Assembly (NCBI RefSeq): GCF_027921745.1
Contig: NC_079239.1
Span: 2,135,501 to 2,199,500, forward strand
DNA length: 64,000 nt
Source: Schizosaccharomyces osmophilus
Lineage: Eukaryota; Ascomycota; Schizosaccharomycetes; Schizosaccharomycetales; Schizosaccharomycetaceae
Reading direction: 5' to 3'
The translations under genes were made by a program, and so were the position numbers. This document shows positions 20,173 through 21,916 of this stretch, piece by piece (the first letter of the stretch is position 1; each line of letters opens with the position of its first letter). Under the pieces are notes generated by a model. That model saw nothing but the letters and a program-made list of their open reading frames with translations, was not told where the DNA came from and searched no databases.

Positions 20173-21916
20173 ATGAGCCAAGCAAACGCTCAAGAACAGG
20201 AGAATGGATTAACTGCCAAAGTAAGTAGGATTGTTTAGCATGGATTGTATCCTTTGGACGCGTTTTGTGTACTTAAAGATGGAAGCTAACTAACAATTAG
20301 GATTGTATGTTACAAAAGAATTGGAAAAAAATTTGCAAACCTTCTTGAAAATTGGGAAAGTCAGTGCTTCTTTGCTGTCTTCAGTTCCATCATCATTGCG
20401 GTCATTATAGATGAGGAGGAACCTCTTGTGCATCTTTAAAGAGAAAATAAACATTTCTGTAGGTCTTGTTTATCTTTATAGTGGTGCGCGGATGTTTCTT
20501 CTATTCTTACAAATTTTATAGTGACCTCGCAAGAAAAACATTGTGCAACTCTTTTCAATAAGTCTTTTATTTTTATTTACTAACATTTTTTTAGATTACT
20601 TTGATAGGTAAGCTACACCTAAGGCGAACTGAACAGTCGACTTTTTGTCCTTTTGATGAGATGAAAGCTCTTCAGCCTATCTTTTTCACTTTTGTTCGAC
20701 AAGTTTAATATACTAAACAAGTAGCTATTCTCATTGGGGAATTCACGAAGAGATGCTCAAGGACGATGTTCGTACTCTCTCGTACCGTGATGCTATTATG
20801 CAAAATCCTCATTTGTTTCGCGACAAAGTTGTCCTTGATGTATGGTGTTTGTGAGCATTTGAGTATACTTTGGTTTAACACTTTTTTAGGTGGGCTGTGG
20901 AACAGGCATCTTATCTATGTTTTGTGCTAGAGCCGGTGCAAAACATGTTTACGGCGTAAGTTTGTCTATACAGGGGATTCACTAACATTTAGATTGATAT
21001 GAGTGAAATTATTCATAAAGCTAGAGAAATCGTTCACATCAACAAGCTTAGTGATCGCATCACCCTCATGAAAGGCAAGATGGAAGATATCCAGTTGCCT
21101 GTTGAGAAGGTAGACATTATTGTTTCCGAATGGATGGGCTATTTCTTGCTTTACGAGAGTATGCTCGATACCGTTTTGCTGGCTAGAGACCGTTACCTTG
21201 CTCCCGGCGGACTTATGTTTCCCGACCGCACCAAGCTCTTGGTTGCCGCTATTGAAGATGCAGAGTATAAAGATGAAAAAATTGGATGTATGTTACAATG
21301 AATGTTCTGGTTATTAACCAAGCAGTTTGGGATGATGTTTATGGATTTGACTTTTCTCCCATTAAACGCGATGTATGGAAAGAGCCCTTGGTTGATAATG
21401 TTGACAGAATTGCTGTGAACACAAATACCTGTGAGATTCTTAATATCGATCTTACCACGGTCAAAAAAGAAGATCTTGCTTTTTCCTCCCCCTTTGAAAT
21501 TGCCGCTACTCGTAATGATTATGTTCACGCCTTTTTAGCTTGGTTCGACGTAGAATTTTCTGCTTGCCACAAACCTTTGTCTTTTAGTACCGGTCCTTTC
21601 TCCCGTTACACCCATTGGAAGCAAGTTGTCTTCTACACTCATAAAGATTTAACTGTCAAGGTATGCCTACCCCACCCGTATTCTGCTTTGAAACAATTAT
21701 TAACCCTTAAAACCTTTTAGACTGGAGAAGTTATTCGTGGTAACATCACCTGCAAGCCCGCCGAGGGAAATCACCGTGAACTTGATATCGGCATCTCTTA
21801 CACTTTTGAACCTAAAGATGGAGAACGTGAGGCTGTTTCTGAAGATATGTCTTACAGAATGTAAGTGTTTTATTTCTTTTGTCGTCGTTCTTCAACTGAC
21901 ATTATTCAGGTGTTGA
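20173..21916 (+). CDS. rmt1: Type I protein arginine methyltransferase Rmt1 (PRMT1), with 4-nt microexon
   Basis: Rmt1 makes asymmetric dimethylarginine in RGG-box RNA-binding proteins using S-adenosylmethionine. Proposed exons are 20173-20220, 20301-20304, 20595-20607, 20725-20839, 20890-20955, 20993-21287, 21326-21660, 21721-21860 and 21910-21916, giving 340 aa. Introns range from 37 to 290 nt, all GT-AG with good branches. Motifs seen are [18 protein letters not shown] (SAM binding), [15 protein letters not shown] (double-E loop) and [14 protein letters not shown] (THW loop). The invariant [17 protein letters not shown] is only readable if exon 2 is GATT, flanked by ATTAG and GTATGT. The last exon adds Cys then a stop; reading through instead gives a stop one codon earlier. 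Confidence 0.93.

Follow-up and report, generated by a model that had tools for sequence, protein, structure and literature searches.

Coding exons of 1–5 nt are already known in other organisms, including a 1-nt exon in a fungus, and microexons missed by annotation have been reported in plants (PMC8831610) and in the CYP621A gene of Fusarium (PMC12940212). The fungal example resembles the exon described here in that it was deduced from the reading frame and a conserved motif, and in that it is absent from nearly all public Fusarium models; it differs in its length (1 versus 4 nt), in its filamentous host and in its confirmation by transcript reads, the present exon being deduced from sequence (PMC12940212). 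The 1-nt exon of Arabidopsis APC11 (PMC4674806) and plant microexons of ≤15 nt (PMC8831610) are described as constitutive, frame-restoring, located in genes for conserved proteins and widely misannotated. These, however, are plant exons, examined with reporter constructs, RT-PCR or RNA-seq (PMC4674806, PMC8831610). The 4-bp exon of human MPC1 has the same length as the one considered below, is likewise not a multiple of three and is reported to be constitutive, but it lies between long introns and reportedly depends on exon definition by flanking intron sequence, whereas the introns in question here measure 80 and 290 nt (PMC9929638).

In the titles and opening parts of abstracts of the papers listed on short exons in Schizosaccharomyces and on rmt1 introns and snoRNAs (a scope lying outside PomBase and JaponicusDB), a microexon in rmt1 is not described, and the main texts of PMC4448684 and PMC3629103 make no mention of this gene.

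Identity and organization of rmt1

The window analyzed is a stretch of 64,000 nt from the genome of Schizosaccharomyces osmophilus (accession no. NC_079239.1; position 2,135,501–2,199,500), and coordinates below refer to it unless a contig is named. It contains rmt1 (plus strand), encoding a PRMT1-type arginine methyltransferase. When the tetranucleotide GATT is included, nine exons form a single frame of 340 aa with the reading LTAK-DYYFDSYSHW. Its predicted product shares 338 of 340 residues with the public S. osmophilus Rmt1 and is homologous over its whole length to Rmt1 of S. pombe (84% identity) and S. japonicus (77%). It contains a methyltransferase core (PF13649, 2e-14) and the PRMT C-terminal domain (PRMT_C, PF22528, 4.3e-60) and closely matches budding-yeast Hmt1 (PDB 1g6q, E value 2.9e-127), which places it in the PRMT1 type; its putative activity is asymmetric dimethylation.

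The exons measure 48, 4, 13, 115, 66, 295, 335, 140 and 7 nt (the last counted to the end of the stop codon), and the eight GT-AG introns 80, 290, 117, 50, 37, 38, 60 and 49 nt. Exon 1 (20173–20220) ends in phase 0 with AAA and is followed by intron 1 (20221–20300; donor GTAAGT, branch site CTAACTAAC, acceptor TAG), whose final bases, CTAACTAACAATTAG, end at 20300. The microexon GATT occupies 20301–20304 and is supported by frame, homology, splice signals and a chance control. Intron 2 (20305–20594) has the donor GTATGT, a CTAAC branch site and a TAG acceptor, CTAACATTTTTTTAG directly preceding exon 3 (20595–20607; ATTACTTTGATAG). Intron 3 (20608–20724) opens with GTAAGC. The remaining exons, assigned by frame and homology, lie at 20725–20839, 20890–20955 and 20993–21287 (exons 4–6) and at 21326–21660, 21721–21860 and 21910–21916 (exons 7–9, ending in a TGA stop). 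The boundaries and signals given around GATT in the first-pass annotation were all confirmed. Since the 13-nt exon 3 directly follows the 4-nt exon 2, 17 coding bases are distributed between three introns.

The acceptor of intron 3 is a tandem, AAGTAG (20719–20724); if its first AG were used, one serine would be gained (DSSY versus DSY) with the frame kept. The last intron lies just 5′ of the stop codon (region 21861–21916), so that the spliced product ends in RMC and the unspliced one in RM followed by TAA; the two proteins differ only by the final cysteine.

The long intron 2 folds more stably than expected (z = −2.77; matched by 1 of 200 shuffles). A match to SNORA13 of Rfam was found within it at 20432–20543 (21.1 bits, far below the gathering score of 53; E value 1.6 for the 2.7 kb searched and 0.17 for 290 nt), and the intron may host an H/ACA-like RNA. 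A universal 18S rRNA stretch, sought with a view to testing rRNA complementarity, had no match in the assembly.

Upstream of rmt1, a divergent frame on the minus strand (approximately 19745–19912) matches ribosomal protein L31e (PF01198, 3.4e-18, a 54-residue piece) and shares its upstream region with rmt1. A 1239-codon open frame on the minus strand (22120–25839) is convergent with rmt1 and has the appearance of a large Nup155/Nup170-type nucleoporin. A second PRMT-like gene is located elsewhere (C1:2744057–2745007); it is 46% identical to rmt1 over residues 2–309, the match forming one open frame with no introns, and is presumably a PRMT3 relative.

Reading frame and conserved motif

The end of exon 1 is in phase 0, while exon 3 opens with positions 2 and 3 of a tyrosine codon; therefore, any piece placed between them must have a length of 1 modulo 3. 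Joining AAA to GATT, exon 3 and exon 4 (from 20725) yields GAT TAT TAC TTT GAT AG|C TAT, i.e. DYYFDSY. GATT is thus an internal coding piece far below the approximate 30-nt limit for microexons, in frame between two introns that both carry standard signals (GTAAGT/CTAAC/TAG and GTATGT/CTAAC/TAG). Its omission breaks the phase, as had been proposed, and a stop is first encountered at codon 84. The other incomplete splicing patterns also fail: skipping of exon 3 or of both exons likewise shifts the frame, the first stop being met at codon 81 or 38, respectively, while retention of intron 1 or intron 2 gives a stop at codon 22 or 32, respectively.

Among the best 120 of 7,991 matching homologues, 92 have DY at the first two positions of the motif (71 found through a pattern and, of the 22 proteins that it missed, 21 assigned by eye). 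The other 28 comprise 22 with x-H, three with VR, and one each with TT, TD (S. japonicus) and VN (the public S. osmophilus record). DYYFDSY is therefore the typical motif and not, as first described, an invariant one, and since other residues occur in 28 of these 120 homologues, VN is compatible with the family on protein grounds.

Splice signals and chance controls

A donor model was fitted to 264 kb of the S. osmophilus genome as a mixture model (164 acceptor groups, 84 introns). It replaced an earlier intron finder, dependent on a long open frame on either side, which gave mixed donors (75 acceptor groups, with a single donor in 31). Scored on six intronic bases, GTAAGT at 20221 reached 5.4 bits, GTATGT at 20305 reached 4.5 bits and GTAGGA at 20225 only 1.8 bits. 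When the three exon bases are included in the score, the GTATGT donor ranks only at the 15th percentile among the 84 introns and GTAGGA at the 10th, percentiles that are rough because these introns are the model's own choice. The microexon donor is thus strong on its intron side only.

All single exons of ≤120 nt preceded by AG and followed by GT, with flanking introns of ≥30 nt, were enumerated as possible forms of exon 2. There are 15 in-frame choices, and GATT is the only one to combine a branch site with a positive donor score; the 14 others were rejected, with no CTRAY within 40 nt and no positive donor score. In dinucleotide shuffles of the 374-nt interval, the combination of branch site, YAG, GAYT and a donor at least as good as GTATGT did not arise once in 20,000 trials. 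The same signals around an exon of 4+3k nt ending in GAYT appeared in 3 of 20,000, and any strongly signalled exon of 1 modulo 3 and up to 25 nt in 71 of 20,000.

In the 264 kb, on both strands, branch site, YAG, GAYT and GTANG coincide at a single place (with two overlapping branch matches). The signals of an arbitrary 4-nt exon (branch site, NAG, any four bases, GTANG[TAC]) are present at three further places when both strands of the same DNA are considered, and signals alone are therefore no proof. Genome-wide, YAGGAYTGTAWGT was found twice on the forward and never on the reverse strand, compared with one occurrence of a control pattern; the other site (C2:1468647) is taken as chance because no open frame of ≥60 codons is listed there on the same strand.

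Nine bases spanning the microexon (TAGGATTGT, 20298–20306) are also present 72 nt upstream, where intron 1 begins (20226–20234). A second copy arose in the interval in approximately 0.25% of simulations, and the repeat is possibly the trace of a small duplication.

It is the combination of signals, frame and homology, and not the signals by themselves, that identifies GATT as an exon here. Together with the chance control, they uphold the original proposal of a 4-nt coding exon in rmt1, as does the published protein sequence, which is what a missed GATT would yield (see below). GATT at 20301–20304 is very probably a genuine coding exon of S. osmophilus rmt1, included as a rule; it would be present in the RNA and used constitutively, the spliced cDNA containing AAAGATTATTAC. 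The predicted junction words are GCCAAAGATTATTACTTTGAT for the microexon, GCCAAAGTAAATTACTTTGAT for the public model and GCCAAAATTACTTTGAT for the skipped form.

The public gene model and alternative joins

The public S. osmophilus protein reads LTAK-VN-YFDSY. A join of the weak donor GTAGGA (20225–20230), by which exon 1 is lengthened by GTAA, to 20595 reproduces it letter for letter. The earlier claim that only GATT can complete the frame was consequently too strong, since this publicly annotated join, with VN in place of DY, is in frame as well. The annotation pipeline combined transcript data (short and long reads) with protein evidence, gene predictors and visual inspection (PMC10085805); each of these would presumably fail on a 4-nt exon. 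RNA-seq and ONT cDNA reads exist for the strain (PMC10085805).

To a GATT-bearing read, spliced alignment with assumed costs of the minimap2 kind gives its top score, 56, at the junction 20225–20594 with three mismatches. A 4-base insertion at the true donor is the runner-up with 55, a narrow margin of one point, and the true alignment scores far lower because two introns are charged. Since the public junction is the best-scoring misalignment of such a read, the VN protein looks like an artefact of tools unable to place a 4-nt exon, and the public rmt1 model seems to carry two wrong amino acids, the microexon having been missed.

Both joins might be used, GATT being normally included while a minority of transcripts take the donor four bases downstream (predicted junction AAAGTAAATTAC), so that a missed microexon leaves the frame unbroken. 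The alternative donor indeed lies exactly four bases 3′ of the main one, and either product is in frame. The same coincidence, however, is expected from any annotation tool forced to keep the frame, and the donor at 20225 is the only GT among the opening few bases of intron 1 that gives a length of 1 modulo 3. We consider such dual use unlikely.

It is also conceivable, although highly improbable, that the public model is simply right: exon 1 would be extended by GTAA, a single 370-nt intron would follow the GTAGGA donor, the protein would read KVNYFDSY and the signals around GATT would be a coincidence. This join gives the annotated protein, in frame and with YFDSY kept, and it derives from the transcript, protein and visual evidence cited above; donors of its kind are found among the 84 model-chosen introns, GTAGGA once and GTAGGT twice. 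Against this, the model requires the very coincidence that was absent from the 20,000 shuffles, passes over a much better donor four bases upstream, yields a VN that, among the best 120 homologues, is seen in this one record, and uses precisely the junction predicted for a misaligned GATT read.

A recursive (ratchet) splice point at TAG|GATT|GTATGT, in place of an exon, is barely credible in spite of the acceptor and donor standing nearly back to back, because such a point contributes no bases to the mRNA, and loss of these four destroys the frame and leads to a stop at codon 84. The arrangement also differs from a zero-length recursive site, AG|GT, since four bases required for the frame intervene. 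Nor does it correspond to a stwintron, in which one intron interrupts a splice signal of another (PMC6616335); the donors, branch sites and acceptors of both introns are each complete.

Probable order of intron removal

At the microexon, splicing would begin with U1 on GTAAGT and U2AF/U2 on CTAAC...TAG, so that the 80-nt intron 1 is removed and AAA is joined to GATT. GTATGT, still intact and by then linked to exon 1, would serve as the donor of intron 2, and GATT would be joined to exon 3. U1 on GTATGT and U2AF on the TAG would be only four bases apart; both sets cannot be seated together, and hence the introns would leave successively, probably intron 1 first. The reverse order, with intron 2 removed first, is less likely. 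For a potato 9-nt exon cited by Guo and Liu the second intron leaves first, and these authors favoured a combination of intron definition and stepwise removal for the 1-nt exon (PMC4674806).

Intron definition, regarded as the prevailing mode when introns are short compared with exons (PMC8624252), is likely for the rmt1 microexon in fission yeast. The first-pass annotation had argued that so small an exon cannot be defined by ordinary exon definition. This part was too strong because the 4-bp MPC1 exon is reported to be exon-defined (PMC9929638), while reliance on intron definition still appears likely.

Relatives and possible age of the exon

S. pombe Rmt1 (340 aa) has the same residues, LTAKDYYFDSYSHW, as the predicted protein, a likeness that concerns the protein and not the gene structure. 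The public S. japonicus protein contains 27 extra residues, with VLNNSRLYVISYAESIIRDLITNLSCST between TAK and DYFDSY. In back-translation, RLYV is encodable by nGATTGTATGT, the sole such place in the insert; ITN permits TACTAAC, and the segment ends with G preceding the AT TAC of exon 3. By arithmetic, the 81 extra bases correspond to 65 from a retained intron 2 plus 16 from a misplaced intron 1 donor. Among 20,000 random 28-residue peptides, 2.0% permit GAYT followed by GTAWGT and 0.125% also a well-placed CTAAC.

AGGAYTGT is encodable nowhere in the insert, and the S. japonicus acceptor is therefore possible only if the annotated intron lies directly before GATT. The first donor in this reading is GTNYTN, a poor one, and the S. 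japonicus protein alone does not fix the exon length. Back-translation lends moderate, indirect support to the view that the exon may be older than the present species of the genus. A further proposal is that the 4-nt exon was kept throughout the fission yeasts, from S. osmophilus to S. japonicus, and that the +4 donor of S. osmophilus is a backup, giving an in-frame VN variant as a fallback or switch; we regard this as quite unlikely.

Significance

The exon is noteworthy for its host and size, for the 13-nt exon next to it, for a possible old age and for a probable error in the public gene models. The analysis suggests that a yeast with short introns has a 4-nt coding exon beside a 13-nt one. 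The beginning of this conserved enzyme is probably misrepresented in the public models of two fission yeasts, since the tools used for annotation are unable to place exons of this size. Since fission yeasts are easily manipulated, rmt1 would be a convenient gene for testing the spliceosome on an exon below its own footprint, and it would also be suited to asking in which order the flanking introns are removed.
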